NCBI GenBank assembly: GCA_018398585.1
Contig: JAGTTD010000013.1
Coordinates: 31,203,131 to 31,267,130, forward strand
Reading direction: 5' to 3'
Length of the DNA stretch: 64,000 bases
Source: Simmondsia chinensis
Lineage: Eukaryota > Streptophyta > Magnoliopsida > Caryophyllales > Simmondsiaceae
Numbering within the stretch: position 1 is the first letter of the stretch; each line of letters starts with the position of its first letter. The notes under the pieces were generated by a model. The model was given only the letters and a program-made list of their open reading frames with translations, made no database searches and was not told the DNA's origin. Position numbers and translations under genes: made by a program. Shown one piece after another: positions 3,001 to 54,960 of the stretch.

Positions 3001-3845
3001 ATTTGTCCCATTTATTGCTTAGTTGCCCTCGTTCTAAGCAAGTTTGGGACACGGCGGCTATGTCCAAGTGGATCCCTTCCCGCCCAACTCGATTGGATAT
3101 AAGGGAAGAAATTAGAGTAAGAAGGAGAAATAAAGACATAGAGAAATTTGCAGTGATGTGTTGGCAGATCTGGAAAGACAGAAACTCCGCGATCTTCAGA
3201 AAGGAGAATCCCTCCCCAGCTCAGACCCTCAACCGAGCCAAAACGATGAGTTTGGAATGGCTATGCAGATCAAAAATTGATGACATTATTGTTGACCGCA
3301 ACCACGATAGATCTTCAGCAAGAATTAGGAATAGATGGATAACCTGGGCCCCTCCAGTGCCAGGATGGCTCAAGATCAACTTTGATGGAGCAAAGAGAAG
3401 TTCTCAGGCAGCGTCTGGGTTTGTGATCAGAGACTCTAATGGTCAAATTGTGAGTTGCGGAACTAGAAAGTTGGGCAACGCCCCAGTCATTGTGGCGGAA
3501 GCCGCTGCAGTGCGTGATGGCCTGTGCAAGGCCATGTCCATGGGCGCCACTCGGGTTATTGTTGAAGGGGATAACGAGGTGGTTATTAAAAGCCTGAAAG
3601 ACGAGTATTCGTGCCCAAGTGACATCAGAACCATCAGAGAGGATATCAGAACCCTTGCGAATAGAGCTACCAGTATTAATTTCTCCCACATCTTCCGCGA
3701 GGCAAACAGATCAGCAGATTTTATGGCTAGTGAAGGATTTGGGATGTCAGGGTTCCACCTTAACATCATGGGGCCAACCAGATCCCTCCTTCTCATTTCA
3801 AGGGCTGAAGCTTCAGGATGTCCCTCGTTAAGAAGTGGACGCTGA
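1..3845 (+). pseudogene. L1 LINE ORF2 (EN-RT-RNase H), frameshifted
   Basis: ORF2 would nick target DNA and copy the element RNA into it. Visible blocks in order: endonuclease with GDFNE (about nt 137) and a degraded SNHSQL where SDHS is expected (nt ~392); RT with LDMEKAYDRVEW (~1474), GLRQGDPLSPYLF (~1646) and catalytic FADD (~1795); a C/H-rich zinc-binding region (~2973-3035); and a C-terminal RNase H with NFDGA (~3380), AEAAAVRDGL, GDNEVV and REANRSADF (~3697). Breaks: a frame change in an A-run near 565-600, an in-frame TGA at 1267-1269 where Arg is expected (CGA to TGA), and a one-base loss near 1966-1970 that moves the frame until the final stop at 3845. RT and RNase H catalytic motifs survive, so the decay is recent to moderate. 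Confidence 0.92.
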
Positions 3846-9139: not shown

Positions 9140-9545
9140 ATGTTTGATGGATTATATTCGTGTTCGTTATTAGGGCTCGATAGCTCGATAGCTCATCGAA
9201 TCAAGTTCAAGCAAAGCTTAAGTGGGTGCTCTGCTCGCTAAGGTTCGCAACTAGTTTGATAGAGTTCTTTAAAGCTCGTTAACAGTCAATATTAGCCCAA
9301 AAATGGTTGTATAACCCGATAATAACTCGAATAGCTCTACTCAGTGGCAAGCTTGACTTCACTGCAAGCTCAGGTCCGTTACAAACTTAATTCAGCTCAG
9401 AAAGCTATTAAGCCAAGTCAAATATCGAACACGTTAAAATCTTATAGGCCTATAGCTTGAACAAATGCTCAAAAGCTTGATAAAGGTTAGATTTATCGAG
9501 CTCGTGTTCCAACAGGAGAATACTTGCTAAAGTCAAACACTTTTA
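9140..9545. mobile_element. AGCTCG-rich hAT-type MITE, decayed
   Basis: Dense AGCTC/GCTCGA words and a right part (GCTCAAAAGCTTGATAAAGG, then TTCCAACAGGAGAATACTTGCT) match the better preserved hAT-type elements at 25.3, 38.4 and 39.6 kb. The left breakpoint of the large duplication (copy A) lies inside it at ~9464. Confidence 0.5.
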
Positions 9546-9784
9546 ATTTAGGACCTATTTAGTATCATTTTGATATTTTTGTGGTTATTTGTTTCAACAA
9601 AATAAAAAGTTGTTATTTTCTATAATCAACCCTTTTTTATTTCGAGTAAAAATTAAAAATAAAAATTCAAAAAATATTTATTTAAAAATTTTAATTTTAA
9701 TTTCTCAATAAACAAAAATAATACAAATAAAGAATCATACAAACAAAATTAAGGAAATATTCAATAAAGGGAGTTGTTATTAAC

Positions 9785-10483
9785 GATGGCAATGAGTCGG
9801 GTTTGGGTTGGGTTTGCTTTCATCCAAATAACCCATAAAAAATCCAACTCGATTCAAATTCAAAAAAAATCTATTTATTCCATAAAAATTTAATCGAAAT
9901 CCAATTCCATCAGATGGAACGGATATCCGACTTAAATTCATAATTCATTTAAATTATAGAATAAAGTATAATATTGCAATCTAATATTAATATATTAACA
10001 ATAATAATGTAATAATAATAACTCAAAAGCTAATATTTGATCAAATTAATACTAAATTTTTCCTTTTTTATTTAATATGTCTAAATGTAATATTATACAA
10101 TCATTGAAATACATCTTAACAAGTAATCTTTTTACACAAATTTGTTAAATCAAGGTTCTATAGAAAAATATTATAGTGCGAGAACGAACTTCAAAATGCT
10201 GGCACAATGAAAAAAATGCTGGAATATAATTAGACATGTTAAAGATTTAAAATTTAGTAAGTTTAAAATTTTTGCTACACTAAACATAATTTTAGGTCGG
10301 ATTAAGGTCGGGTCTTGGTTAGGTTTATGCCATCCAAATCCCACCCAACCCAAAACTCATTTATCAATATTCAAATCCAAATTCACTTAAAACCCATTTT
10401 TTGCATTCAAATCAAAGCCATCATAAATGAATCGGGTTGAATGGACATCCGATAGATTCGTGTATAATTGTCATCGCTAATTG
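9785..10483. mobile_element. GGCAATGAG-type hAT-like MITE (copy A)
   Basis: Ends CGATGGCAATGAGTCGGG and, inverted, GCGATGACAATTATAC. Body words (CGGGTTTGGGT, TGGACATCCGATAGATTCG) occur inverted near both ends. Non-coding. Target duplication not resolved. Same family as 16474-17172, 34015-34340 and 58046-58556. Confidence 0.6.
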
Positions 10484-10799
10484 TCATTATCAAGGTCAAA
10501 AATTATTATTGTCAAAGCAATGATATGACATACACAAACAGTAAAATCACAAAATTACTTTAAAAACTATAATTTTATTTTAATAATAATAAAATTTTAC
10601 CGTAATCATAATATTATTCTGTTCAAATAATCAATTAAATTTATATATGATATACGACAAATAAGCTTTGTTTGGTTGCTTTACTGGCATTTCATGCACA
10701 TGCGGCCCGATGCTTTCCTAGATGGGCATGCCCTGTGTGGATCCTTTTTTTTTTTTAAATAATGTTTATTATATTTAAATATATATATATATATATATA

Positions 10800-12143
10800 T
10801 GTATATATGGTTTTTTACATTTTATCAATTAGATTTTATATTGTATAGCTTTTAACCACCCAAAAAAAATTTAGTTGCAAATGACCCCGATAAAATATTC
10901 CTTTAGAAAAAATAGAATATTTCATTCAATTTTAAAATATTTCATGTTCATTCTCAATTTTAATGTTGCTTGTAAATAACCACCTATATTTTATAATATA
11001 TAACTTTTGACCACCTCAAACTTTTTTTTAATAAAAAACACATTTTCTAATCAAATCTTTATTTTTTTCTAAACATGCCAAACACATTTGATATTTCTCT
11101 CTCTCCCTCTCTCATCCAAAACTGCCAGATCACTTCATCTTTGTCTGCACCATTTGTATCAACTAGACCTGAAAACACGACACGATAACATGACACGGAC
11201 ACGTCATAAAGATAGCGGGTTAGGGCTGGGCTTTTGAAGCCAGGTTAAATTTGGGTTGATCCGTTTAACCCATTTGGATATTTGGGTCGAATCTGGGTTT
11301 GAACCCTTTAACCTGTTTTCAATACGCTAGACCTGCTTATCTAGACATGTTAGGTCTTTGAGTGGTATAATACGGTTATTATGTACAGATTTTAATAGTC
11401 TATCCCACATAAGATAATTTAAACTATATTTATTAATGGTAATTTGATAAATTCTAAACGTTAAAAATATGTAATATATTTACTGCTAGTATAAACCGTA
11501 AACAGTGTTATTTACATTTTTATAAGTTGACAAATTAGTATTTAATAAAAAAATACTAATATAATTTAAATGGATAAACCGCATGTTACCTTTTTAATAA
11601 TTGGGTTGGCTCAGGGTTGAAATTTCTTAACCCATATAATAAGCGGGTCGGGTTCGGGTAGACGCCGTTTCTAGCCTTGTATAACACGAACACGAACATG
11701 ACACAACACGTCAGGTTTGCCACCCCTAGTGTCGACACACAGACGCGGGCAACGGGTTTTGTAAAACTGTGTTTCGACACACATATTTTGCATGTCGACA
11801 CACAGATTCCTGAGAATGTTTCTATAAAATGTGGTTAAAAACTTTTAGTTAAATGATGAAAAAAATAATCAAGCGGTCAAAAGCTATATACTATAAAATA
11901 CAGCTGGTTAAAAGCTATATATCGTAAAATACAGGTGGTTATCTGCAAACAATTCTAAAATTAGAAATGAACACATAATATTTTGAAATTGGATGGAATA
12001 TTCTATTTTTCTAATGAAATATTTCATCCGGTGGTTATTTGCAACCAAAAAGTTTTTTTAGGTGGCTAAAAGCAAAAAAAATAAATAAATAAATAAAAAA
12101 TGAGGAGATTAAAAGCTAGATAGTGTAAAACCTAAGCGGTTAA

Positions 12144-12185
<42 letters not shown>
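10800..12185. mobile_element. long-TIR non-autonomous DNA element (copy A)
   Basis: Two arms of roughly 220-330 bp (about 10800-11025 and 11850-12180) are imperfect reverse complements. Shared words include TAGCTTTTAACCAC, GGTTGCAAATGACC/AACCACC, AAAAATAGAATATT and CACCTGTATTTTA. Arms this long around a short non-coding core resemble non-autonomous Mutator-like or foldback elements. Both ends sit in AT runs, which hides the target duplication. A hAT MITE is nested in the core. Confidence 0.65.
11164..11728. mobile_element. hAT MITE nested in long-TIR element (copy A)
   Basis: Starts TAGACCTGAAAACACGACACG and ends with the reverse of TAGGGGTGGCAAACCTGACG. Subterminal ACACGACACG/ACGAACACGAACATGACAC repeats are typical of plant hAT MITEs. 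Flanks GTATCAAC and GTGTCGAC are a decayed 8-bp target duplication; the partner copy at 17895-18453 preserves it better. Confidence 0.75.
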
Positions 12186-12189
<4 letters not shown>

Positions 12190-12354
12190 AGTGAGATGGT
12201 AAGAGTGAATTCTTGACCACTTATTTAGCTGTTGACATCATTTTCCTCCCATTTGATCTCACCCTATTGATCCCCCGCTTTAACCACACAGAATTCATCC
12301 CCTCATCTCTTACCCTTTCATAAGAGTCATCCTCTATGTGTGTGTATATATATA

Positions 12355-12676
12355 TTGTGTTATGTGTAGAACCTGATTGTATTGGGTCTTGTTTATAAAA
12401 TATAGGATTGGGCCAATCCTATTGAGACCCGTGACACGCAAGGGTTTTAATATAATGGCTCTATATATACACAAGGATTGTGTATATTACCATTAGGGTT
12501 GAGAAGGATTTGAGAGGATAGATAGTTGAGAGACGTCTCATGTAAACGCCAATGATATTAATGAAATTATTGTGCCCCCTCCGTGGATGTAAGCTTCGTC
12601 TGAACCTCGTAAATTCTTGTGTTCTTCCCTATCCTTTTTTGTGTGTTATTATTATTTCGATTTAGGGTTCGTTATC
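12355..12676 (+). mobile_element. copia-type solo LTR (copy A)
   Basis: Begins near TGTTATGTGTAGAACC and ends near TTCGTTATCA. It contains a TATA-like GGCTCTATATATACACAAGG, then GTGCCCCCTCCGTGGATGTAAGC...GAACCTCGTAAATTCTTGTG, the conserved R-U5 block of copia LTRs. No internal region is attached. Present at the same place in copy B, so it was there before the duplication. Confidence 0.65.
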
Positions 12677-14124
12677 ATGTCGGTAATCTTAATAGGTCGT
12701 ATCAAGGCCCCACAATATATAATATCAAAGAGTTCTAATTGATTGTAAGTTAGTATATTTAATCGATGGACAACATCTTTTTAAATGTTCTTTACGGCTT
12801 AAATAAAAGTATGAAAATATTGTTTTATAACTAAATCAGTATCACCAAAACATATATTTTACTTTACCATTGAGGATCCGTTTCGATCAATGAAAATATT
12901 TTTTCTTACAAAAAGTTTTTCCTCACAAAATATTTATTTCTTAAAAGTTTTTATCTTTGCTGCTAAAGAAAATAATTTTATTCTATAAATTTATTTCTTA
13001 TAAAAATATTATTTTATAATTAATAATTCCTTACGATTTTGAGTAGAATCTCGTTTTAACGACATTTGTCGTACGTTGAGCTCTAAATAATTAATAATTA
13101 ATTGATGTAGACACTGTGGTCACGTGCGCAGCCACTTCAATGCAAAATTAACAGCCATTTGTACTTTGGATTAATTCGTATTATAACATCATTTAGAATA
13201 AATTATATATTAGTAATATAAAATTTAGGGTAATAATTTTTAGTCCATAAACTATATAAAATAATTTATTAATTCATAAATTTTAGTGTAATTATTTTTT
13301 AGTCAAATTTTAGAAATATGATATCAGTATTTTAATTAAAAGTTAACGTGTAAAGTTAAAGAAATTACATTTTGAATAAGGATATAAATGTCTTTTTATT
13401 TTTGCAGCACTTTGTTTTTCCCAAAATTTGACTAAAAATTATTTATATTAAAACATGTGGACAAATAAATTATTTCATAAAGTTTATGGACTAAATAAAT
13501 TATTGTAATAAACCTTGCGGTATTAATATGTAATTTACCCTATTATTTATGTAATAATTTAGGTGTTTTTATGAGAGCTATGATTGCAAGGGCAAAAATT
13601 ATTATTAATAGAATAATACTATGACTTATAAACAATAAGAATAATAAAATTATTTTAAAAATTATAATTTTACTATAACAATAATAATTTTATCCTATAT
13701 TATTATTAATAATTATATAAATAATTCCAATTATGATCACATAAGATTATGCTGCCTAATTTAGCAAAGGAAGTCATTTTCACCCGTTAGAGTTTCCCTC
13801 AAAAAAAATTTTCTGTAAAAGAATACACGCTAAACAATAGAAAACGGGGAAGATCATTTCATATAATCTAATTTTCCTCTAAAAACGAAACCTTAATATC
13901 CAGACATTCCCCAAAATATCTTCTATTATCTCGTATGGTATTATAAGATTATGTTGCCACATTAATCAATATATATACCTAAGAAAATCTATTTGATTAC
14001 TCTAATTCGAATGAAAAATGAATATTCCATCATATTGTGGAATTATTACCTTTTAAAACTAATTTCTTTAGAAACACTTATTCCATAAATATTATTTTTT
14101 TAATTATGAGTAACTTTTACTTTA

Positions 14125-14889
14125 AAATAAGAAGTATCGATCACACCTCCTAAGCCACGATTCCGGTTGCTTTCCATCAAATGGATCGATTTCTACCCTT
14201 GGCTGCCTGTAAGTGCCACTTCTACCACCAAGAGTGTTGTCATTAGTCTCGGTTCTTTGCTGAAAAGGTCTTTCCGGTGGTCGAACAACATGCTCCACCT
14301 CATCGGTTGCAACATTTGGTTGTATAACAGAATTCTGCGGCTGACTGTTTTGATGCAAGTGAGCTGCTGCAGATCTATTTGGCTCACAGTCAGATACTCA
14401 AACTTGATTCTCCACCTCCACATCATGTTGTATAGGTTGAAATTCAGCTGATCTGATGTTGGTTGATGGCCCAACATCCATCTTAATCTCAGGCGATTTT
14501 CCTCGCTCCAAAACTGTTGCATTGGTCTGTTCTGCTCGGGTCTGCTGTTGATCAGATCTCGATTGAGGAAAGATCTGACTAGCCGGCTTCAAAATGGCAT
14601 CAACACTTGATTCTCTTTGCTTATTTACCTGGTCTTGCAGATTTTCAAGTCGTTTCTCCAATTGTTGCAGCCGATGTTCCTTTTTTTCATCTTTCTCCAC
14701 CAATAACTTCGGGATTTGCTGAATCCCTTCAATTTGGCTTCGACTTTCAGCATTTTGTTGCTTAAGTTCAGCAAATTGTTGATCAAACTTGGCTTCCATG
14801 TGTTTTATTTGATCACGAAGCTCATTGGAAGTATCTACATTCAAACCGACACCACCAGCCCCTGATCTGGTCCGAACTCCATCAGCCAT
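14125..14889 (-). pseudogene. Ty3-gypsy gag, 5' part only
   Basis: Starts MADGVRTRSG at 14889 and reads through a predicted coiled coil (repeated Q/E/K heptads, KHMEAKFDQQFAELKQQN region) to the start of the retrotransposon gag domain (DPFDGKQPESWLRRCDRYF). There it is cut off at ~14125 by the edge of duplication copy A. One in-frame TGA sits near 14398-14400, probably an Arg CGA to TGA change. Gag would form the virus-like particle. Zinc knuckle, protease and pol are missing, so the element cannot move. Confidence 0.85.
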
Positions 14890-16019: not shown

Positions 16020-16473
16020 GTACTCTCCACGTCTAATCTCTCAAAATCAAAATCAAGATCTCAATTCGTTTTCGTCCTTAATGGCCTGTTTTCGCTCTTT
16101 AATTTAAGTTTAATTACACGAAAGGTCCTTATACTTTGTCCATTCTGTCAATGTTCAAAAGCTTGATAAAGGTTAGATTTATCGAGCTCGTGTTCAAACG
16201 GAGAATACTCGCTAGAGACAAACACTTTTAATTTAGGACCTATTTAGTATTATTTTGATATTTTTGTGGTTATTTGATTCAACAAAATAAAAAGTTGTTG
16301 TTTTCTATAATCAACCCTTTTTTATTTCGAGTAAAAATTAAAAATAAAAATTCTAAAAATATTTATTTAAAAATTTTAATTTTAATTTTAATTTCTCAAT
16401 AAACAAAAATAATACAAATAAATAATCATACAAACCAAATTAAGGAAATATTCAATTAAGGGAGCTGTTATTA

Positions 16474-17172
16474 AGGATGGCAATGAGTCGGGTTTGGGTT
16501 GGGTTTGCTTTCATCCAGATAACCCATAAAAAATACGACTCGATCCAAATTCAAAAAAAATCTATTTATTCCATAAAAATTTAATCGAAATCCAAATCCA
16601 TGAGATGGAATGAATATCCGACCTAAATCTATAATCCATTTAAATTATAGAATAAATTATAGTATTGCAATCTAATATTAATATATTAACAATTATAATG
16701 CAATAATAAACTCAAAAGCTAATATTTGATCAAATTATTATATCTTTTTTCCTTTTTTTATTTAATATGTCTAAATGTAATATTATACAATCATTGAAAT
16801 ACACCTTAACAAGTAATCTTTTTACACAAATTTGTTAAATCGTGGTTCTACTGAAAAATATTATAGTGTTAAAACAAACTTTAAAATGTTGGCACAATAA
16901 AAAAGATATTAGAATATAATTGGACATGTTAAAGACTTAAAATTTAGTAAGTTTAAAATTTTTGCTACACTAAACATAATTTCAGGTCGGATTAGGGTCG
17001 GGTCTTGGTTAGGTTTTATGCCATCCAAATCCCACCCGACCCAAAACCCATTTATCAATATTCAAATCCAAATCCACTTAAAACCCATTTTTTGCATTCA
17101 AATCAAATCCATCATAAATGGATCGGGTTAAATGGACATCCGATAGATTCGTGTGTAATTGTCATCCCTAAT
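16474..17172. mobile_element. GGCAATGAG-type hAT-like MITE (copy B)
   Basis: Partner of 9785-10483. Ends AAGGATGGCAATGAGTCGGG and, inverted, TTAGGGATGACAATTACAC, slightly better conserved than in copy A. Confidence 0.62.
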
Positions 17173-17466
17173 TGTCATTATCAAGGTTAAAAATTATTAT
17201 TGTCAAAGCAATGATATGACATACACAAACAGTAAAGTCACAAAATTACTTTAAAAACTATAATTTTATTTTAATAATAATAAAATTTTACCGTAATCAT
17301 AATATGATTTTGTTCAAATAATCACTTAAATTTATATATGATATACGACAAATAAGCTTTGTTTGGTTGCTTTCCTAGCGTTTCATGCACATGCGGCCCG
17401 ATGCTTTCCTAGATGGGCATGCCCTGTGTGGATCTTCTTTTTTTTTTTTAAATAATGCTTATTATA

Positions 17467-17475
<9 letters not shown>

Positions 17476-17512
<37 letters not shown>

Positions 17513-18895
17513 TTTTTACAATTTATCAATTAGATTTTATACTATGTAGCTTTTAACTACTTAATTTATTATTTTTGCTTTTAACCACCTAAAAAAAATT
17601 TTGGTTGCAAATGACCACTAATAAAATATTCCATTAGAAAAAATAGAATATTTCATTCAATTTTAAAATATTCCATGTTCATTCCCAATTGTAGTATTGT
17701 TTGTAAATAACCACCTGTATTTTATAATATATAGCTTTTGACCACCTCAAACTCTTTTTTGAATAAAAAAAACATTTTTTAATCAAATCTTTATTTTTTC
17801 TAAACATGCCAAACACATTTGACATTTCTCTCTCTCCCTCTCTCATCCAAAGCCACCAGATCACTTCATCTCTGCCTGCACCATGTGTGTCAACTAGACC
17901 TGAAAACACGACACGATAACATGACACGGATACGTCATAAAGATAGCGGGTTAGGGCTGGGCTTTTGAAGCCAGGTTAAATTTGGGTTGATCCGTTTAAC
18001 CCGTTTGGATATTTGGGTCGAATTTGGGTTTGAACCCTTTAACCTATTTTCAATACGCTAGACCTGTTTATATAGACATATTAGGTATTTAAGTGGTATA
18101 CTACGGTTATTATGTATAGATTTTAATAGTCTATCCCACATAAGATAAACTATATTTATTAATGGTAATTTGATAAATTCTAAACATTAAAAATATGTAC
18201 TATATTTACTGCTAGTATAAATCGTAAACTGTGTTATTTACATGTTTATAAGCTGACAAATTAGTTTTAATGAAAAAATACTAATATAATTTAAATGGAT
18301 AAACCGCATGTTACCTTTTTAATAATTGGGTTGGCTCAGGGTTGAAATTTCCTAACCCATATAATAAGTGGGTCGGGTTCGGGTAGACGCCATTTCTAGC
18401 CTTGTATAACACGAACATGAACATGACACAACACGTCAGGTTTGCAACCCCTAGTGTCGACACACGGACGCACGCAATGGGTTCTGTAAAACTGTGTTTC
18501 GACACACATATTTTGCATGTCGACACACGGATTCCCGAGAATGTTTCTATAAAATGTGGTTAAAAACTTTTAGTTAAATGATGAAAAAAATAATCAAGCG
18601 GTCAAAAGCTATATACTATAAAATACAGCTGGTTAAAAGCTATATATCGTAAAATACAGGTGGTTATCTGCAAACAATTCTAAAATTAGAAATGAACACA
18701 TAATATTTTGAAATTGGATGGAATATTCTATTTTTCTAACGAAATATTTCATCCGGTGGTTATTTGCAACCAAAAAGTTTTTTTAGGTGGCTAAAAGCAA
18801 AAAAAATAAATAAATAAATAAATAAAAAATGAGGAGATTAAAAGCTAGATAGTGTAAAACCTAAGTGGTTAAATATAATATATATATATATATGT
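17476..18895. mobile_element. long-TIR non-autonomous DNA element (copy B)
   Basis: Partner of 10800-12185. Arms near 17510-17755 and 18570-18885 are imperfect reverse complements. The AT runs at the ends differ in length from copy A. Confidence 0.65.
17895..18453. mobile_element. hAT MITE with 8-bp TSD (copy B)
   Basis: 559 bp, starts TAGACCTG and ends CACC-type CAACCCCTA, so the ends are TAG...CTA as in hAT elements. Flanks GTGTCAAC (17887-17894) and GTGTCGAC (18454-18461) form an 8-bp target duplication with one mismatch. It sits inside the long-TIR element, so it is the younger insertion. Confidence 0.82.
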
Positions 18896-19049
18896 AAGTG
18901 AGATGGTAAGAGTGAATTCTTGACCACTTATTTAACTGTTGACATCATTTTCCTCCCATTTGATCTCACCCTATTGATCCCCCGCTTTAACCACACAGAA
19001 TTCATCCCCTCATCTCTTACCCTCTCATAAGAGTCATCCTCTATGTGTG

Positions 19050-19390
19050 TGTATATATATATTGTGTTATGTGTAGAACCTGATTGTATTGGGTCTTGTT
19101 TATAAAATATAGGATTGGGCCAATCCTATTGAGACCCGTGACACGCAAGGGTTTTAATATAATGGCTCTATATATACACAAGGATTGTGTATATTACCAT
19201 TAGGGTTGAGAAGGATTTGAGAGGATAGATAGTTGAGAGACGTCTCATGTAAACGCCAATGATATTAATGAAATTATTGTGCCCCCTCCGTGGATGTAAG
19301 CTTCGTCTGAACCTCGTAAATTCTTGTGTTCTCCCCTATCCTTTTTTGTGTGTTATTATTATTTCGATTTAGGGTTCGTTATCATGTCGG
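19050..19390 (+). mobile_element. copia-type solo LTR (copy B)
   Basis: Partner of 12355-12676. It and its surroundings (18.92-19.55 kb) differ from copy A at only about three positions that I could see. Confidence 0.65.
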
Positions 19391-21034
19391 TAATCTTAAT
19401 AGGTCGTATCAAGGCCCCACAATATATAATATCAAAGAGTTCTAATTGATTGTAAGTTAGTATATTTAATCGATGGACAACATCTTTTTAAATGTTCTTT
19501 ACGGCTTAAATAAAAGTATGAAAATATTGTTTTATAACTAAATCAGTATCACCAAAACATATATTTTACTTTATCATTGAGGTTCCATTTCGATCAATGA
19601 AAACATTTTTTCTTTCGAAAAGTTTTTCCTCACAAAATATTTCACTAGAAATATTTATTTCTTATAATTTTATTCTATAAATTTATTTCTTATAAAAATA
19701 TTATTTTATAATTAATAATTTTTTATGATCTTAAACAAAATCTCGATTTTAACAACTGCGGTTGTACGTTAAGCTCTAAATAATTCGCAATTAATTAATG
19801 TAGACACTGTGGTCACGTGCGCAGCCACTTCGATGCAAAATTAACAGCCATTTGTACATTGGATTAATTCGTATTTTAATATCATTTAGAATAAATTATA
19901 CATTAGTAATATGAAATTTAGTGTAATAATTTTTCAGTCCATAAATTATATAAAATAATTTATTAGTCTATAAGTTTTAGTATAATTATTTTTTAGTCCA
20001 ATTTTAGAAATATGACATCAGTATTTAAACTAAAAGTTAACGTGTAAAGTTAAAGAAATTACATTTTGAATAAGGGTATAAATGTCTTTTTATTTTTGCA
20101 GGACTTTGTTTTTCCCAAAATTTGACTAAAAATTATTTATATTAAAACATGTGGACAAATAAATTATTTTATAAAGTTTATGGACTAAATAAATTATTGT
20201 ACTAAATCTCGTGGTATTAATATGTAATTTACCCTATTATTTATGTAATAATTTAGGTATTTTTATGAGAGCTATGATTGCAAGGGCAAAAATTATTATT
20301 AATAGAATAATAATATGACTTATAAACAATAAGAATAACAAAATTATTTTAAAAATTATAATTTTACTATAACAATAATAATTTTATCCTATATTATTAT
20401 TAATAATTATATAAATAATACCAATTATGATGACATAAGATTATGCTGTCTAATTTAGCAGCATAATCTATATTTTTATAATTTTCCACTTTAGATTTTC
20501 CATTGTTGGTTTCAACGTAAACTTGTTTCCACTTTACGATGTTCCTTTGTTTATTATAAAAGAAAATATCTGACAATAAACTTTTGTAGCTAACATAAGA
20601 TCGATTTGATCCAAACTCGGCCGAAAACTACTCGAGGCTTTGAAGTAATGACTTTTCCATATTTTTCAAATGAAGTCATTTTTCACCCTTTAGAGTTTCC
20701 CTCGAAAAAAAATTTTCTGTAAAAGAATACACGCTAAATAATAGAAAACGGGGAAGGTCAATTCATATAATCTAATTTTCCTCCTAAAAACAAAACCTTA
20801 ATATCCAGACATTCCCCAAAATATCTTCTATTATCTCGTATGGTATTATAAGATTATGTTGCCACATTAATCAATATATATACAGTAAGAAAATCTATTT
20901 TATTACTCTAATTCGAATGAAAAATGAATGTTCGATCATATTGTGAAATTATTATCTTTTAAAATTAATTTCTTTAGAAACTCTTATTCCATAATTATTA
21001 TTTTTTAATTATGAGTAATTTTTTACTTTAAAAT

Positions 21035-22068: not shown

Positions 22069-25000
22069 ATGCATAGCAGTAAAGGATCAGTGAATCATCG
22101 AGCGTCAACAATGGCGTTTGGATCGCGGATTATGACTCTTTTGCTCTCCATGTTTGCAACCGTCGCTTGTCTCTACGTCGCCGGCCGGTAATTCTCTCTC
22201 TCTCTCTCTCTCTCTGTTTCTCTTTCGAGTTCGAATTTGTATTTGATTTAATTTTGAATAAATTTTGGGTATTAGTACCTTAAGGTTTGATATATTAATT
22301 TTATAAGAAATTATCACTGAAGTATCTTGAGATTTGACCATTATCTAACTTCATTAATATATACAATGAAGTGCCTCAAGATTTAAACAGTTTGTCACTT
22401 AGTAACCTAAAGTTTTTAAAATTTTATCAATCAGATACCTTTTGGCAAAATTTGATAGATTTTCTTTGGAAAATGCTAATTGAAGCGTGATTTTGACTAT
22501 ATAGTAGTATCTCTATTAGGATTTGATGATCTTTTGCCAAAAAATGCTAATGTGACGTATGATTTTGGCAATATTTAGATGGTTTACATCAATATTTGAT
22601 GAATTTCTTATCATGATTTGCTGAAAACATTGACATAACTTATATATATTATTATAACTATATATTGTATCAGTATTTTTTGTATCAAATTGGTCAGATT
22701 CTTATAAAAATTCATCAAATTATGTCTTAGAGTACCTAGGTGATAGATAGTTCAAACCTAAGATATCTTATTGTATATATTAAAATGTTAGGATATTTAC
22801 ATGATAAATACTCAAACCTCAGGGTACTCAGTGATAATTTTCCTAATTCTTGATTCCACAACGTTGTGAAATAACTTTTAGTCCAAAAAGTTACAGATAT
22901 TTAATAAAATAGTTTAAGTGGGTGGTGTGTAAGGTGCAGAATAGGCCCTCCTTCCAACTCTTTTACATTAGCAATGTTACAAAAGACGATTCAGGTGTAG
23001 GGTGAAGGAAATAGTGAGGAAATGGAGTTATCAACAATTCTTTCACATCGTTGTTTGGATTATTTTATTAAATACATGTAACTTTTTGGACTAAAAAATT
23101 AGTTCACAAAGTTTGTGGAGTAAGATTTTAATAAACCAAATTTCAGGTACTAATATGTAATTTAGCCTTCTTTTTCATTCTTATGCTGGACTGAGAATAT
23201 GTGTTATTATGATTGAATGATATATGGAATATTATATTCTGATTGTGATGAAATTATTGTTCGGATGATGGTGTAAGTGAGCTGTAGCGATGAAATGTGT
23301 GTCTTAATAGTTTGTGTTGAGTTTCATATATTGTTCCGATTTGATTTCCGTTGTACGATTTGTTTTTGTATTTGACTCTAGTGATGAAGTGTTTGCTTCT
23401 TTTCAATCAAGTTCACAGGAATCTAAGGAAGTGCTTTTTCTGCTACGGTCTCCTTTTGTTTGTTTAGCTTTTTTTAGGGTATTTGTTACTGAGGTAGCCT
23501 AAGGTTAAAACATATATTATTTAAGTATTCTAACGTGTAATAGATGTTTGAGGATTGAAGATTGAATGACCAAGTTACCTTCTAAAATCCGATGGATCTT
23601 TCGCAGAAACGATGTCATATGACACATTAATTTGACAATATTTGTGTCATGTCGGCTTTTTTGTAGGAAAACTAGTAATTTTGCCGGAATCTAGTGAATT
23701 TCCAATAAAAAAAGGCTCATGTGGCATAGAAATTGGATTTATGTGCCTCCTTTGCATTCACCGGATTTCGGCAAAAGATACGTAGGTGATAACAACAACA
23801 ACAACTCCTCGAATAGGCTCCCGCCATGGCATGGTATGGGGGAAAAAATGTACGCAGTCTTACCCTTATAGGGTGCTACCCTGGAGAGAGGCCTAAAGGA
23901 AAAAAAGGAACATACTCAGTGCCTCAAGGGCTCCCGCCTACGCAGGGTCTGGGGGGGCGGATGTACGCAGCCTTCCCCCTTCAGGTTGTTAACCTGAAGT
24001 GAGGCTGTTTCCCAATGCCCCCAACCTGAGGGTGAGGACTTCCGAGGAGGTCACCCATCCTGGTACTACTCTCGCCCAAGCACGCTTAACTTCGGAGTTT
24101 TAATGGGATCCGGTGACGGCGTGTTGGTGCCTCCTTTGGTACCCTAGAGAGAGGCCTCAACCTTAAAAGAAAAGGAAAGTGAGAGAAGTAGAAGACAAAG
24201 AAGAAGAAACAATATTAAAAAATTAGTCAAATAAAGCAATACCATGCATGCAAACAACAATAAATCAACCAAACAACAACAATAACAAACATGCATGCCT
24301 AGGGGTGTTGTGCTCCTATCTTCTAACTGCTTGACCACACGTATTTTAACCACCGCTTAACTCTATCTAAGGCCATCTCTTCAGTAAGATTTAGGTGGAT
24401 AGGATCCTTTTTAATCAACTCCATCCATCTTTTCGTTGGCCTGCCTCTGCCTCTTTTCTCGTGTTTGATATAGTGATAAATTTTTTAAATCATAATGTAC
24501 TTCTTTATTGTTTATTAAAACTTCAAGATACTTCCAGATAAATTCATGTTCTTTTACCTCTTATATGGTAAGATAAGACTTCATTCCACCAAACCATGGG
24601 CAAGAAGAAGAGAATGTAATTTGATGTTAAATGACTAAGTTTTGAGCTTTCATGCTGGTTTTTTTTACTGTATTTTTATGTTTCTGTGGCAGATTGTGGC
24701 AGGACGCGCAAAATAGGGTCTATTTGATTAAAGAGCTAGACAGGATAACAGGTCAGGTAAGTACAGTTAAATTACGTAAGTTACAATAATCATTTTTGTC
24801 TTATAAAAATCGTGATGATTTGACCGTATGATATGACTGATGATTATCATGTTGGTGAAGAGTTTAACATTGTTCAGCTGATGACAATCACATTTTAGTC
24901 TTACTACTATTTAATTTAATAGATTCTTATTAATTTACCTCCAATCATTTATCATTTGTATTTCGAGATTTAGGAACTATGTTATACTTAGTTGACTGCT

Positions 25001-26758
25001 GCACACGTTCCTATGTGATGCTAAGGTGGTTATTCAAGCTATAAATAGTAGATTTTGTGTTCTTTCTTGGGACATGGAGGCTCGTGTGAGGGACATCTGG
25101 GAATTACTGGGTGGTGTTTTCTTATGTCATCTTTTGTTTGGTGGCCTAGAAGTCGTAACCTATTAGCTCATAGGGTGGCTTCCTTGCACCACTAGGCTAC
25201 ATGTTCATATTCTTAGGCCAGAGTCTTGTACATTCGAGTTCTAATCTTTCCGTGTGATGTTGGTTTTTGTTGGCTCTGTGCCCTTGTAATGATCTAAAAA
25301 GCAGTTTCCCATTTCCATGGAAATAGCTAGGGCTGTGTTAGAGTGGAGCCGAGCTCGAGTTTGTTAGGCTTGAGGCGTGGTTCATTTACATTTAATTTGG
25401 CTCGGGCTTGGCTTGAAGCTTGCCGGGCTTGGGAGCTTCAAGCTTGAGCTTGGCTCAGCTCAACTTGATTGAACTTGAACCTAGCTTGTCGAGTTCCAAA
25501 CTAAGTTTGCAATTTTTAGGCTAGTTTAAGCTCTATCTAGTCTCATTTGGGCTTGTTTAGGCTTCGGCTCAGCTTATTTAGGATCAAATTTGGCTTGGTA
25601 GGACATATTTAAGCTAATAAATTACATTAAGATAGCTTGTTTAGACTCGTGAGCCTACAATTTCAAACTTCATTATGCTCGGGCTTGGCTTGATAAGCTA
25701 AACAAACCAGCTTGACTAGGTTCAAGCTCCAAATGAGCCGAACTTTTCAAGACCCGAGCCGCGCTCGTTTACTCCCCTAGAAATAGCTGACTGCTGCGCA
25801 AGCATAATATGTACATGGGAACCTTTTTCATTTCTGCTGTTTCCAAGAGGATAATTTGTCTCTTAACTGTCCCCATGGGACTTAGTCTAGTGGAGGAGAA
25901 CGCCGGCGGCCATCCACGCCACCCAGGTTCGATCCTCACTAGGGACTGGTGGCTCCACTTTATGGAAACCTCCCCCCTGCCCCGGCAACATTTTCGATGT
26001 AAAAAAAAAAAAATTTGATTCTGTCATTTTACAGGGCCAATCTGCTATTTCAGTGGATGATTCATTGAAAGTCATAGCATGCAGGTAGTATGATTTTCTT
26101 GTGCCATTTCGATGATTCACACTTTCCATTAGTAAAAATTAATGCTTGTATTCAAGACTGGTCAAGGATTTTTGCTTGCTAGGGAACAGAAGAAAAAACT
26201 CTCAGCTCTTGAAATGGAGTTGGGTGCTGCTAGGCAAGAAGGTTTTACTTCAAGATATTTGTCAGGGATTGACGGGAGCCGTTCTAGGAAGAAGCCACTA
26301 GTGGTGATAGGGATATTAACAAGTTTTGGGCGCAAAAACAACAGAGACGCAATCCGCAAGGCATGGATGGGAACAGGTAGAGTGCAAATTTTCTGTGAAA
26401 CATGCCCAATCCCCTGCGGCTCTCCTCTCTTCTCTCTGAAATGTGCAGTGAAAGGAAAAAAAAAAAAAAAAAAAAAAAAAAAACCCAACTCCTTTTAAAT
26501 AAGAGTAGGTTAATGTTGGCTTGCCTGAAGGTAATAAAATTGCCGTTGTATAAAAATTGAGTGGATGTTGTTGTCAAAAAACTGAGTGGATATAGTACGG
26601 AGGAATTATAAGGGAGTGTGTAAATGAAATCAATGCTTCATTTAAGTACTCATGTTTGAAATCAATTAGGCCTCGCTCATGTTTGTTTTGAGGACTTCAT
26701 AGCTTATCGATCCAAGACTCAATGAGCTTAACGAGCCTAGTTCCAAATTTTATTTTAT

Positions 26759-26789
<31 letters not shown>

Positions 26790-27986
26790 GGGGGGGCGCT
26801 CAACTAATAGTTTGATTACGGGTTGTTAATAGTCTATTAGTTCGACAATGATTCGATAATAACTTGAATAGCTTGGCTCGGTAACAAGCTTGAGTCGACT
26901 CAATGATGAGGTCGACTTGGCTCGATTAGCTTAATCGAGCCAAGTGAAGTTGGATATTTGACACACTAATATCTTGTCGAACTGATTTCCAAAAAAGGTT
27001 TGTAAGCTCGATAAAAGGCTCGGCTCGAGTTCGAACAGAGGGATGTCAATTTGACTCCGCTCATTTACACCCTACTTTCTCCATTTAACTTTGCATGTCA
27101 AATGTTCAAGCTCTGAATTCTGAAGTAGCATGATTCAGGATTTAGGCTGTGCATTTGAATTCTGCCATAAAATATGGCAAGTGTTGTAATATGAATATCA
27201 CCTTTTAGAACATATATTTCTGTAGGTTGTGTTTTGGGTGCATAACAATACCAATAACAGCAAACCCAGTGCCACAAAGGCTCCCGTCAAAGTAGGGTAT
27301 GGGGGGTAAGATGTACATAGTTTTACCTCTTTAGAGTGTTTTGGGTGCATCTAGATACTAAATCTATTTAAGGCACGGGTTCTCTTTTTTATATGTCTTC
27401 GTATGTTAGTTGTTATTGCTATGCCTTTTAATGAAACAATGGGAAATAGAAATAAGAGATCTTACGAGTGAGAATAGCTTGTATTTAGAGAAGCATTCGA
27501 CCTGTCCTGACGTCAAACATTCATATTTTCTACTGTAGGTGCTGCTTTGAAGAAGACAGAGAATGAGAAGGGCATTATCCCACGCTTTGTCATCGGGATA
27601 AGGCATTGTTCCTTCATTTCCTAACTTTTGTATATGTCCAAGACTTTCCCATGTTTGCTGAATGTGTTCTCATGGTTATATTTGCTTGCAGTGAGAATCA
27701 TGGAGACAATTTAGACTCGATCATAGACATTGAAAACAGGCAGACCAATGACTTCATTATCCTTGTATGTTCAATGACCCATAAAAGTTTACATGTCCTT
27801 CATATAATGTGGATACTTTGTTTATTCATATCTTTGGCATACTTTGAAAGTTATATTCAAAGGTACTCCGCATTCAAAGTGGCAACATTTGTTTGTTGAT
27901 TGTTTGATTCGTGATATTTTATCAATGATGACCATAGTGATGCTCAAGCATGTTTGCGCATCATTTTTTCTGTCCCCATCCTCCTC

Positions 27987-28017
<31 letters not shown>

Positions 28018-31000
28018 GAGAGATTCAACGGAAAGGAATTTGTATTAGTAATTGCAATGATCATCATAATGATGAGAACAATAGCTGGACTAATGACAGC
28101 GTTGTTTAAGGTGACCAGGTATATTCAGAAATAAACAGAACTACATAATGTTGTTGGACAACAATAGAAGCATATATGCTGTATCCTGTACAAGTTACCT
28201 GAAAGCCTTATATTGAGCTCTATTTGGAGAATTTTATTTTCTTGTATCAACAGAATAACAAATGTTTTTCCCTCGTTGAACAGAATAACCATGTAGAGAC
28301 ACACAAGGAGCTACCGAAAAAGACCATGTTGTTCTTTGCACATGTGGCAGATACTTGGGATGCTGAATTTTATGCAAAAGTCAATGATGATATTTATGTA
28401 AACATTGGTAAGTCTGAATTTACTTTCCACCGATGCGGTAGTCTGTGTATTTCAATATTTCCTTTACTCCTTAGTAAGTAAAGCATGCTGGTGAGCCTTG
28501 TAAAAAGGTTACGGCTTCTAGGAAAGACTCCCCAAATAAGATATTTTTGCCTATTCATCTTGTATGAATACACTTTTAAGCCTTTGGCAGTGGCCCAATC
28601 AATTAGAAGTAAGGAAATACCTACATCTTCGTGTAAATTCAGTAAAATAAAGCGACAAGGACAACCATCAAGTTAGAAAATACCGTTCTTAAAACATATA
28701 CTGCCCTAGAATTCCGCTTTCTTCTCATACTTCAGATTTTCCTTTCAAATCGCCGCCTGGTTAACATTTTCAAATGATATGCCTGCAAGAGGCACTGATT
28801 CTCATTTATTCCATGAGCCTATTATAGTTGTTGGCAGGGGCTGTAATATATTCTATATATTCTGAAGTCGCGGGGAAATCTCAATGTCCCAAATTCATGT
28901 TTCCTTCATTTAGGACATGTTTGGTAAATGGAGTAAAGGGGGTTATTTGTTTATAGGTGTAATCTTGAAAACCCTTTTAATCTTATTTGGGTTCACTTTG
29001 AATTCATTCCGTAAAAAGTTTGACCCCAATAGTAGGCAACATTCATGATTGGAAGGACCTAGAAAATTGTTCAATATGCAAAACCTAAATGCTTTTGTGC
29101 ACCATAAATGATTAACCCTGTAATGTTAACCTCAGCTCAAACATGGTGCCATTAGTTGTTACTTTTAGTGCTTGTCGGCCCCTGCTTCAGAGTAGAAAAA
29201 GAAACCAAAAAATGCTTTTTTATCTTTATTGGTGTTTGGCCCACACAAAATTTCTTTTAAATGATAGCAAAATCTCTTTTTTTGGTACTGTAAGAGAGGC
29301 AAAAGAATTGGGCTTCTGCTTGGACACAAAATTTGAAACTTTTTAGTTGATATTCTTTGTGACAACTCTTTTTTGAAAAAGAATTTTGAAAAAAAAAAAA
29401 TAAATAACAATATTGTTGCAACACTAGCAAACTAAGCCTTGGTCTTTTAGCCAATATGTCCAAGTAACTTAGTGGGCTATTTTGATCGCAGATGTCCTTG
29501 GAAGTACACTTGCTTCTCATATGGACAAGCCTCGCGTTTACATGGGATGTATGAAGTCCGGAGAAGTATTTTCTGAGCCGTGAGTTACATCTCAAACATA
29601 GTGGCTGACGCTTCGTTTAATTGATGAATAATATTAATGCACAACGATTGCTATGTAATACTCTGAACTTTGTCACTGGTGGACCTTCAGGAATCAGAAA
29701 TGGTATGAGCCGGAGTGGTGGAAATTTGGTGACGGAAAATCGTAAGTAATATTAAATCTGGTTTTATAAAAGTGAAGGACATATTTTGCCCCCCCCCCCC
29801 CTCTCTTTCTTTCATTTCTTTTGTTGATTGGGAGCAGTTGCAAAGCAACATAGATGTAATACACCAATTGTCCACATTGAAGCAATGTAATGCTTTTTCT
29901 TTAAAGCAAACATAGAAGTGAAAACTACAATTTTTTTCGACAAATATAACCCCATTGATACACTTTTGACAGAAGCGCTTTTGCAAAAAGGGGTTCTAGA
30001 AAGTTTTTTCACAGCTTCGCTAAACAAGCCCTAATTCAATCTTATTGGTTAATTTGGTTTTTAGTGGGGTTAGCTATATCTTATGGGTTTGCTAAAGTCC
30101 TCAAATCCCGCTATGGCAGATGTGTGTGTCAGTGTTTGGACTATACTTGTCATTTGGTTTGCTTTTATTGCACTTAAATCAGCAACATACCTTGTTAGAC
30201 AGTTGACGTACAAATTTAATTGATCATTCACATATTTTTTTCTTTTTCTTCACTTGTTTACATTTGGTGCATACATGAATGCTAATTATCCCTACTTCTC
30301 GTGGAAAAGGTTGAGGAGCCTTTGGATTGAATCTTCGGGCTTAAATGTTCTCGACTGCATATACGTTTTGAGGAAAATGATTTATGTATAAATGTTTAGT
30401 ATGTATCATGAGATGTTACGCAATGGAAATATCTTAATTGCCCTCGTGCCATGTTAGCTTGTAGTATATGGCTTTTGCATGCATATCTTTAGAGATCTTC
30501 TTATGCATGTGTACAACAGACCGAGTTCTTAGGCATGTGTCAATATCCTATTTTTTTAGTATGCTTGGTCATGCTATTTGATTGCCACTTCTTTCGTCAT
30601 TGTTCAAAAGAAATAATACAACAACAACAAACTCAGTGCCTCAAAGAGGCTTCCATCAAGGCAGGGTTTGTGAAGGGTGAGATTACGCAGCCTTGCCCGT
30701 ACAGGGTGCTACTCTATAGGGAGACTGTTTACAAAGGGACCCCAACCCTAAAAAGCAAAGACTCGTTGTTCAAAAGAAATATGCCAAAAAAATGCTCAAA
30801 AGTTACCACCTCTATCCTTTCAAATTCTAGTGTTTTGATTTTTATGATGTCTTTTGCCCTGGTAGGTACTTCCGCCATGCTTCTGGTGAAATATTCGTCA
30901 TATCGCAGGCGTTGGCTAAATTTGTTTCAACAAACAGGTTGGTTCTTTTCTCGTCATTAGCTACAACGTAAAAGTATTCTGGTAATGCTCTTCATAATGC

Positions 31001-32646: not shown

Positions 32647-33024
32647 TAAGGGCGTATCTGAGCTGAGCTAAGCCGAGTCAAGCTGCATGGTGTTAAGCTT
32701 GGTTGGGCTCGGATCGGTTGAGCTCAAGTTTGGCAAGCTTCATACTAAGTGTGCAACATTTAGGCTCATTAAAGCTTGATTGAGGCTCATTTGGGTTTGT
32801 TTAAACTCGGATTCAGCTCATTTAGGCTTAAACTTGGCCCGTTGGGCATATTTGAGCTAATATATATTATAGTAAGATATGCTTGTTTGGGCTAGCAAGC
32901 TTATGAGCTCGGGCTCGGCTCGGCTCGGCTCGATAAGCTAAACAAGCTCGCTCGACTTGAAAATAGCCAAGTCGAGCTTTATGACAAACTAGCTCATGAG
33001 TGGCTCGGGTCATTTACACCCCCA
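32647..33024. mobile_element. AGCTCG-rich hAT-type MITE
   Basis: Starts TAAGGGCGTATCTGAGCTGAG and ends GGTCATTTACACCCCCA, close to the ends of 38358-38798. Flanking 8-mers do not match, so boundaries are tentative. Confidence 0.6.
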
Positions 33025-51624: not shown

Positions 51625-52179
51625 AAAAAAGGATGAGAGATTACAACAACAACAACAACAACAATAGCAACAACAATTCTAGTACCTCAAGGGCTCCCAC
51701 CTAAGTGAGGTCTTTGGGGGTGGATGTATGCAGCCTTTCCCCTTTAGGGTGAAGGGAGGCTGTTTCCGAGGACCCCCACCCTGAGAAGCTTGTCGTCATG
51801 GGAGCATGGAAGCCTATAAGCAAAAGAGCAACGAAGCATAAGAGCAGGACATAGCATAAAACAGGCATTACGAAGCAAAGCTCCATAGAAGACAATTGCA
51901 AGGCAAATCAAAGGCATGGAAGTGCTCAAGTACACCAATCTACAAATAAGTGCTCTAATACGTACGCCAAAGAGGAAGTCAAGACACCTAGAAACACTAG
52001 TGTAAGCCGTAAAGAATACACTCCTCTATGCCGCTACATCGGCTATCCCATTGCTAGCCCTCCACCGAGCTCTATCTAAGGCCATCTCCTGCCGTAGGTT
52101 TAGGTGGGTGAGGTCCTATCGAATCGTCTTCTCCATCTCTTCTTTGGTCTGCCTCTCCCTCTCCGCCCTAGTGTCGTAT

Positions 52180-54960
52180 GGAGCTACTCGCATCTCCTGA
52201 CTGGAGCGGTGGCTAGTCTCCTCCTAACATGACCGAACCACCTCAAACGTTGCTCCCTTAATTTATCCTGAATCGATGCGACGCCCAATTTTCCTCTTAC
52301 GACGTCGTTCCTGATCCTACCCTCCCTCGCGTGTCCACACATCCATCGCAGCATCCTCATCCCCGCGACCTTCATCTTCTATGTATGATGTTGTTTCATT
52401 GGCCAACACTTAGTCCCATAAGACATAGCCAGTCTCACTACCGTCTTGTAGTATTTCCCCTTTAGCTTTAATGGGAACCTTCTGTCGCAAAGTACCGCCG
52501 AAGCCATCCTCCATTTATGCCAGCCTACTTTAATCCGGTTGTTGACATCCTCGTCCACTTCGCCGTTGTGCTGAACCATGGAACCCAAGTATCTGAAACT
52601 CTATTTTCTCTGTATGGTCTCAGATCCTACCTTGATGTCTACTATGTTGGTCGTGTTTTCGATACCGAACATAAGTTCCATGTACTCGGTCTTGGATCTA
52701 TTGATCTGTAAGCCCTTTGATTCCAATACCCTTCTCCATAATTCCAGCTTCTTGTTTACCTCTTCTCGAGATTCCCCTATCAAAACTATGTCATTTGCGA
52801 AAAGTATGCACCAAGGCATATCCCCTTAGACGTGCCTAGTGAGCTCATCCATTACCATAATGAACAGAAAGGGACTCAAGGCAGATCCTTGGTGTACCCC
52901 TACTGTTACTGGGAAAGCTCCTGTCTCTCCTTCCGATGTATGCACATTAGTTTGTGCATTGTCATTCATGTCTCTAGTGGCCCTAATATATGGCACCAGA
53001 ATGCCTTTCCTAGCCAGCATCTTCCATAGGACCCCTCTTGACACTCTGTCATATGCCTTCTCCATATCAATGAAAACCATATGGAGATCATTTTGTCTCT
53101 CCTTGTATCGCTCTATTGTCTACCTTAGGAGGTGATGGCTTTTATTGTTGATCTTCCGGGCATAAATCCAAATTGGTTCACGGACACCTCTGTCAGTTGT
53201 CGTAACCTCCTCTCTATGATCCGCTCCCATAGCTTTAGAGTGTGGCATATTAGTTTAATACCCCGATAGTTGGCGCAACTCTGGATGTCGCCTTTATTCT
53301 TATAGATCATGATCAATATGCTCTTCCTCCATTCGTCAGGCATCTTTTTCCCCAGAAGGATTTGATTAAATAATTTAGTCAGCCAACCTATGCCCCTCTA
53401 TCCAAGGCATTCCCATGCCTCTATGGGTTTTCCATTTAGGCCAACTGTTTTACTCCTTCTCATATGTTTCAAGGCTTCCTTTACTTCGTCGGATGTAATC
53501 CACCTGCATTGGCAGTTGTTTTGGCGCTCTGCACATGTTTGGTGTCCATCTAAGTATATCCCAGTATCCCCTTGATCGTTGAGCAAATCGTGAAAGTAAG
53601 CTCTCCATCTAGCTTTAATTTGTTCCTTGTCAATGAGTACCTGTCCATCTTCCCCTCTTATGCTCTTTATTCTGTCCAAGTCCCTCGTATTTCTTTCTTC
53701 CGTTTTGGCAATTTTATATATGTCCTTGGCTCCCTCCTCGGTGTCCATCCTTTTGTAGAAATCCTCATAGGCTCTTGATTGCGCTTCTCTGACTGCTCTC
53801 ATTGCTTCTTTCTTAGCTTGCTGATACTGATGTTGCTTGTCCTTGTCACCACTACTTTCTCATTCCTTGAAGCAGTCTCATTTGGCCTTAATCTTCTCTT
53901 GTACCTCCTCACACCACCACCAGTACTCTCTGTTGTTGGTGCCCCTCCCTTTGACATGCCCAAAACTTCACTTGCTAGTCCTCTGATCTTCTGTGCCAAT
54001 TGGTTCCACATTTGGTTGATATCTCCCTCCAAATCCCACTCAATTTCCGAAGCTGCTCTTTCCTTATAGACGATATACTTCTCCCCCTTCAAATCCCTCC
54101 AACAAATATGTTTTTGGTAGGGTTTCCTAGTTCTTTTGGCCCTCTTATTGGCCATTAGATCAACACACAACACCTTATGTTGTGTGGAAAGGTCTTCCCC
54201 CGGGATTACCTTACAATCCCTGCAATCTCTCTGTGCCCTTCTTCTTAATAGTATGTAGTCAATATGGGTTCTTATTGCCCCGCTTTGATACGTAATGATA
54301 TACTCATCACGCTTTCTATAGAAGGTGTTGGCAATTGTTAGCTCGTAATTGACCGCAAAGTCTAGAAGCGCTTTGCCTTCTGCATTCCTAGCTCCAAAAC
54401 CAAATCCTCCATGGTACGATGCGTAGCCATCCACGGTCCTGCAAGCATGCCCGTTGAAATCCCCGCAGATCACCACTTATTCGGTTTGGGGTATGCCTTG
54501 AATCATTATGCCTAAGTCCTCCTCGAATGTTGCCTTCTCGTGCTCAGTTAGTCCAGTCTGAGGTGCATAGGCACTGATGACGTTCCATATCTCCCCTTCT
54601 AGGACCATCTTGATGGCTGTGATCTTATCGTCGGTCCTGGACACTTTTAACTACTCTATCCTTGAGACTGCTATCCACAATGATGCTTCATTCCTGCCTC
54701 TGACCTTGCCCACATACCACAACTTATATCCCAACACATCTTTGGCTTCCATGCCAACCCATTTAGTCTCTTGCAGATAAAGGATGTTGATCCTTCTCTT
54801 CATCATCATTTGCGCCACCTCGAAGCCCTTCTTTGTTCGTGTCCCAACATTTGGGCCACCTCAAAGGCCTTCTTTCTTTTGCTTCTCCCTCTCCCTCCCC
54901 AACCCCTTTGAAGATGGCCTCAAGTTTTGAGTTCCATAACTAGTGTTGTTCATCCACTAG
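52180..54960 (-). pseudogene. RTE LINE ORF (endonuclease-RT), broken
   Basis: Reading from high to low coordinates: decayed APE endonuclease start (~54850-54480), then VVICGDFNGH (~54470), THIDYILLRRR (~54250), STQHKVLCVDL, linker, RT motifs ANYRGIKL (~53265), QFGFMPGRST (~53165), VFIDMEKAYDRV (~53070), GVHQGSALSPFLFI (~52880), FANDIVLIGE (~52800) and a C-terminal part with [19 protein letters not shown] and [10 protein letters not shown] (~52225). The catalytic RT motif reads FAND, not FADD, so even an unbroken copy would be inactive. Stops and frame changes occur near 54476, 53800, 53400, 53120, 52825, 52600 and 52378. Confidence 0.9.

Follow-up and report, generated by a model that had tools for sequence, protein, structure and literature searches.

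The question raised by this locus is whether a piece of 5S rRNA sequence that runs directly into the 3′ end of an RTE LINE is an accident of a single site or a mobile element in its own right. The sequence analyzed was a 64,000-nucleotide stretch of the Simmondsia chinensis (jojoba) genome, referred to here as the window. The composite element, a SINE of subfamily A (see below), occupies positions 23895..24139 on the minus strand and is 245 nt long; 39 other full-length or near-full-length copies were scored in the same genome. It is bracketed by target-site duplications at 24140..24157 (the 5′ copy, TACCCTAGAGAGAGGCCT) and 23877..23894 (the 3′ copy relative to the SINE, TACCCTGGAGAGAGGCCT), which are 18 bp long and identical at 17 of 18 positions, with one mismatch. 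No similar 18-mer (at most one mismatch) was present near both ends in any of 20,000 simulated flanks. When the insert was removed in silico, the flanks could be aligned as a single older RTE tail that has a gap of about 15 nt relative to other RTE copies (in a join carrying one extra base). A further RTE-like fragment lies at 24361-24454. The SINE thus inserted into an older RTE copy, the remnant of which spans 23805..24454 on the minus strand and has its tail at 23805-23892. The identity of the two duplications and the alignment of the joined flanks bear out the first-pass annotation, which had described an 18-bp duplication around head and tail inside an older RTE sequence. The 3′ end (23895..23906, minus strand) is T-rich rather than (TTG)n, consists of T7 followed by CCTTT, and contains the sole run of four or more T residues of the element. 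From its sequence, this end is a probable candidate for a Pol III terminator. The folding of the whole element was unremarkable (z −1.26).

The head of the element was matched by the Rfam 5S rRNA family RF00001 at positions 24140-24023 on the minus strand (63.8 bits, E 4e-11). No other Rfam match in the window reached its gathering threshold, and a profile of the head found no second head location there. The 5S rRNA-derived head was placed at 24028..24139 (minus strand); its first base corresponds to 5S position 2, and both its 5′-most nucleotides and the 5S 3′ end are altered. The minus-strand 5S identity had been recognized from the start, but the length given for it, ~82 nt, was too short, as the head measures about 112 nt. 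In an ungapped comparison with a reference plant 5S sequence, the number of identical positions was 1 of 11 for nt 2-12, 8 of 14 for nt 13-26, 76 of 81 for nt 26-106 and 2 of 13 thereafter, and only 5S nt 26-106 are highly similar in the window head. With the three promoter boxes at their presumed positions, box A (24077..24091) was identical to the reference at 15 of 15 positions, the intermediate element (24069..24074) at 6 of 6 and box C (24044..24061) at 17 of 18, all on the minus strand. In box C one position differs and the AGGATGGGTG core is intact. This core is the canonical one according to PMC10853983. Three published hop 5S probes were identical to the window head at 23/23, 20/23 and 20/24 positions, and a 5S probe used across many plants at 39/41 (probes from PMC7274563 and PMC11121585). 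A tRNA-type head with boxes A and B, as in tRNA-headed plant SINEs, was considered and rejected, the head being 5S by Rfam; a search with ARAGORN, which is a weak test for degenerate heads, found no tRNA in the window. The 5′ head is thus homologous to 5S rRNA including its putative internal promoter, the feature by which SINE3 elements are recognized.

The RTE LINE-derived 3′ tail occupies 23909..24027 on the minus strand (~120 nt) and matches other RTE ends in the window. Within the window, matches were found at 51670-51781, 58968-59086, 41802-41927 and 30622-30746, together with weaker copies, and the four sites confirm the earlier statement that ~120 nt are homologous to the extreme 3′ end of the local RTE LINE. 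The BLAST matches to the four best window RTE copies stop at 24026-24030, which is where the 5S similarity begins. Most of the tail-matching window copies end in TTG-like repeats. As tabulated in PMC3747384, seven of seven RTE LINE families of flowering plants end in TTG-type repeats, and a poly(A) end is given for 224 of 233 L1 families.

An example of the partner type is a degenerate RTE-like LINE at 51668..54860 (minus strand; 5′ limit set by eye), the tail of which ends in TTG repeats. Matches to Pfam RVT_1 were obtained for three of its eight pieces and exceeded the curated cut-off in one case (E 3e-10); a further match, to an endonuclease family, was weak (one piece, E 0.065, below the cut-off). 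Among 12 protein relatives of the last piece, four are named craniofacial development protein 2-like, which we take to be the usual label of plant RTE proteins; the RTE protein relatives were at most 50% identical over about half of the query (Capsicum). The tail of the window LINE was 81% identical to the consensus tail of subfamily A and 86% identical to that of subfamily B. These comparisons show a 3′ tail common to the SINE and the RTE LINE, as expected of an RTE-partnered SINE. LINE and SINE tails also have in common a predicted stem-loop (23968..24007, minus strand), in which 5 of 17 pairs show two-sided changes across eight partly related sequences, consensus sequences included. This number was reached by 3 of 500 shuffles, and slid controls gave 0-1. 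A compensatory change at one tail pair was discarded, being private to the window copy and mismatched in consensus A. The tail motif of Au/Angio-domain SINEs (GGAAACAGCC...AAGGCTGCGTACAT) is presumably related to the tail of the window SINE.

The remainder of the window is rich in other repeats. Short 5′-truncated RTE pieces lie at 27261-27340 and 30622-30746 and have their own long flanking repeats as judged by eye (TATGCACCCAAAACAC and TATTTCTTTTGAACAACGA, respectively). Two 4.3-kb blocks, 9464-13766 and 16150-20460, are 93% identical in direct orientation; 13759-14128 also matches 20661-21034. The arrangement is probably a duplicated or long-terminal-repeat type unit. Large open frames at 571-3845 have the look of an L1-type LINE, and the relatives of 1968-3842 contain reverse transcriptase and RNase H domains (the best, from Prunus dulcis, is only 34% identical). 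Pieces of a Copia-type retrotransposon, named by eye from gag, integrase and reverse transcriptase-like frames, were found at 47984-51008, and mutually matching repeats rich in GGGCTTGGC/GAGCTTG motifs at 25385-25679, 32727-32957 and 39729-40003.

The distribution of the element was investigated in the assembly from which the window was taken (831,394,711 bases, 35 contigs). Searching with the whole element resulted in 5,190 loose candidates, the 40 best of which were scored; these include the window copy and were selected for likeness to the query. They were 94-100% identical, full length or nearly so and spread over many contigs, and 34 of them begin at base 1. Own duplications (score ≥11) were present in 28 of the 40 best copies and absent from 12; among 192 control pairs, in which the 5′ and 3′ flanks came from different copies, there was none. 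A junction pattern in which box C is followed after 20-50 nt by GGAAACAGCCTC occurred at 2,635 exact places and a 22-nt head pattern at 5,046, and the reversed control was 0 for each. Multiple copies with one 5S/RTE junction and with their own duplications had been predicted for a SINE family and were indeed found, the duplications in most of the 40 best copies. The junction counts, the duplications and the head-then-tail structure support the proposal of a 5S-type SINE with an RTE tail in a flowering plant. As one duplication pair brackets both parts and the other copies with duplications repeat this arrangement, a chance adjacency of head and tail is disfavored, as had been argued from the window copy. 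The element is short, dispersed and non-coding, has many copies and carries its own duplications, and it is therefore a SINE, a retrotransposon of the non-autonomous kind. Element patterns had no match in viral and general genome contig collections, in which few plant sequences are expected, and a plasmid sequence search gave no match.

Two explanations that would do without such a family were weighed against these data. If RTE had made a single jump to 5S rRNA at the window site, the result would be a one-off chimera, and the complete-5S junction of subfamily C, described below, does look like the product of such a jump. With 2,635 exact junctions, 39 other full-length or near-full-length copies and own duplications in most of the best copies, this explanation is highly improbable; a one-off chimeric retrocopy was rejected because many copies share one junction, and a jump may still explain the founder. 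Alternatively, 5S sequence from Cassandra-type LTR elements could have landed beside RTE tails, given that these promoter boxes are also present in the LTRs of Cassandra across many plants (PMC10853983). The duplications, however, bracket head and tail only, and of 20 heads without an exact junction (the first listed on contig C1 that were absent from the exact-junction list) 19 are followed by the RTE tail. In the remaining one the tail breaks off, and its junction and the first part of the tail give way to other DNA. A 5S part that always lies within a longer Cassandra-type LTR, named beforehand as the alternative, does not describe these 20 heads, in which the RTE tail follows. The absence of an LTR after the head in the 20 cases, together with the duplications, led us to reject Cassandra identity, the probability of which we consider negligible. 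The reading of a 5S-headed, RTE-tailed SINE family is retained in what follows.

Insertion-site statistics were calculated for the 28 copies with duplications. The duplications had a median length of 18 bp (range 11-23), and their first base was A or T in 27 of 28 copies (background A+T 67%), with T in 14 and A in 13. Upstream of the insertion, T was found at position −10 in 20 of 28 copies (p 6e-5, not corrected for the 20 positions); at −9 the count was 19 of 28. The trinucleotide TTT was present upstream in 15 of 28 copies vs. a background of 27% (p 0.003), and the presence of TTTT in 6 of 28 was marginal (p 0.053). Plant RTE LINEs and their SINEs have a Tn-TA insertion signature, and the SINEs end in Tn, according to PMC13295347. 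The jojoba sites resemble this plant RTE signature in the T stretch ~10 nt upstream, but the duplications of plant SINEs are described in the same source as starting with T, whereas here A is about as frequent. With a T at the end of the element, the duplication start can slide by one base. The T stretch of RTE-partnered SINEs is thus present at the jojoba sites, and the first base of the duplication is mixed.

The substitution rates at non-CpG sites of the 40 scored copies were 0.4% in box A, 0.6% in the intermediate element, 2.5% in the tail and 4.1% at the 5′ end. The least changed part was nt 97-105 (0.3%), and box C was barely more conserved than the tail (2.1% vs. 2.5%). The bodies of the consensus sequences of subfamilies A, B and C (see below) contain no T4 run. 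In our judgment it is very probable that this is a SINE family with a 5S head and an RTE tail that is moved by RTE. In the mechanism that we propose, the 5S-derived internal promoter would direct Pol III and 5S factors to start at the first base of the element, and transcription would end at the terminal T run. The RTE LINE reverse transcriptase would then recognize the RTE-derived tail including the conserved stem-loop, and the RTE enzyme would insert the copy by target-primed reverse transcription, leaving duplications of ~18 bp. We infer RTE-driven insertion from the tail identity and the insertion sites. The insertion signature, the stem-loop and the conserved box A and intermediate element are consistent with Pol III transcription and RTE copying.

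Three subfamilies could be distinguished. The first 100 junction places, all on contig C1, were divided by their spacer into 85 of type A, 14 of type B and 1 of type C. A complete 5S end joined to the tail occurred at 642 exact places (reversed control 0), and type C was defined from an alignment of the first 20 of these loci. Consensus C has a nearly complete 5S, identical to the host gene at 104 of 111 aligned sites when gaps are left out, and its 3′ 5S end GTGTTGCACCCC continues through TCAGGTTGGGG into the RTE tail. Compared to it, consensus A is without 8 nt at the 5S end and differs at 16 of 231 aligned sites. Consensus B is identical to host 5S at 105 of 110 aligned sites (gaps, which fall at the 5′ end, left out), has a 5′ end closer to that of 5S and a slightly different junction, and terminates mostly in (TTG)n, as the LINE does; A and C end in T runs. 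Additional copies of each type were picked by an exact short pattern in their order along contig C1, a procedure that favors intact copies, and their mean identity to the best consensus was 93.2% for A (20 copies), 90.7% for B (14 copies) and 85.6% for C (16 of the 20 loci; the other four had A or B as best match). With a threshold of 10 and slightly different scoring, own duplications were detected in 6 of 20 pattern-picked A copies (control 0/152), 4 of 14 B copies (0/101) and 5 of 20 C copies (0/153); age is offered as an explanation for these low fractions. As C is the most and A the least diverged from its consensus, C is probably the oldest and A the youngest subfamily.

We also considered that A/C and B might go back to two different 5S-RTE fusions. 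B keeps a 5S-like 5′ end, its junction GTGTTGCCAACCCTATAAGG is unlike the C junction GTGTTGCACCCCTCAGG, (TTG)n mostly ends B while T runs end A and C, and 13 of 119 aligned sites distinguish the tail of A from that of B. On the other hand, the A and B heads agree at 92 of 94 aligned sites when gaps are ignored, both have the motif CCAGG where host 5S has CTAAG, and the B and C junctions could be aligned to one another by eye. Two separate fusions therefore seem rather unlikely to us.

The host's own 5S genes were located for comparison. Of 47 scored genes (the 47 best of 51,838 loose candidates), 46 are on contig C8 and one is on contig C29. Those on C8 form two groups, at 4.685-4.702 Mb and 6.397-6.415 Mb, both of which look tandem. 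The units read from the first group have a box C with AAGATGGG / AAGATGGGTG, and because of AAGATGGG the head pattern misses them. Box C has the canonical AGGATGGGTG in consensus A and B and the host form in consensus C. The stretch CCCATTAGAACTCC is common to the consensus heads and the host's own 5S genes, while the hop probe has CCCATCAGAACTCC there, which points to a local source of the head.

For the birth of the family, we propose that the founder may have arisen when the RTE reverse transcriptase, working on its own RNA tail, switched to a 5S rRNA at its 3′ end. In subfamily C the complete 5S 3′ end (...GTGTTGCACCCCT) meets the RTE tail directly, and a template jump is for this reason the simplest origin and, in our estimate, a fairly likely one. 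U6-L1 chimeras are an analogue of such a jump. The family would then, with somewhat better than even probability, be the first plant lineage of 5S-headed SINEs, born by a template jump, comprising at least three subfamilies and thousands of copies, and its members could be donors of the Cassandra 5S. The junction of subfamily C at the 5S 3′ end bears on how SINEs are born, and the 5S head would represent a second type of Pol III promoter recruited by the LINE machinery of plants. Thousands of 5S-like copies also carry a risk of confusion with 5S genes or Cassandra in annotation and cytogenetics.

Elements that borrow one or the other part of this structure are known. Cassandra TRIMs have borrowed a 5S promoter in plants, as has the jojoba SINE, but carry it within LTRs (PMC10853983). 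PMC10886601 repeats the speculation that Cassandra arose from a SINE3 insertion into an LTR, and the jojoba SINE is a plant candidate for a donor of this type. SINE3 elements and DeuSINEs have a 5S head and a LINE tail as found here, but they are animal elements with CR1 or RSg-1 tails (PMC3747384, Table 1). 5S-headed SINEs were reported from animals in PMC3747384 and PMC10886601, and also from a fungus, Aspergillus, in PMC5063351. The tobacco TS SINE shares an RTE 3′ end with its LINE, as here, but has a tRNA head; it is the RTE-tailed land-plant pair in the table of PMC3747384. The RTE-related SINEs of legumes have the RTE 3′ end, the Tn end and the T-stretch signature in common with the jojoba family (PMC13295347). 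Plant SINEs are called tRNA-derived in PMC9033089, and in PMC8825457 AnnoSINE allows that SINE heads may come from 5S and sorts plant heads against tRNA, 7SL and 5S libraries. In the titles and starts of abstracts of the open-access literature no plant 5S-headed SINE was found, and an earlier description is possible.

The closest counterpart is Ped-1 of the springhare, which has the same architecture of a 5S head and a BovB RTE tail (PMC3747384, Table 1), but belongs to a mammal and derives from a different 5S and a different LINE. Since the plant head shares a stretch with the 5S of its own host, an independent birth of the two elements is likely. That a rodent has the same architecture suggests convergence, and it may indicate that jumps of RTE enzymes onto 5S rRNA happen readily. 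The first-pass annotation had regarded the 5S/RTE pairing as undescribed; this has to be narrowed, as RTE-tailed plant SINEs and Ped-1 were already known (PMC3747384 and PMC13295347), and what is apparently new is the 5S head on a plant SINE. The element is of a known kind, its occurrence in plants appears to be new, and the family size and subfamily structure are contributions of the present analysis.
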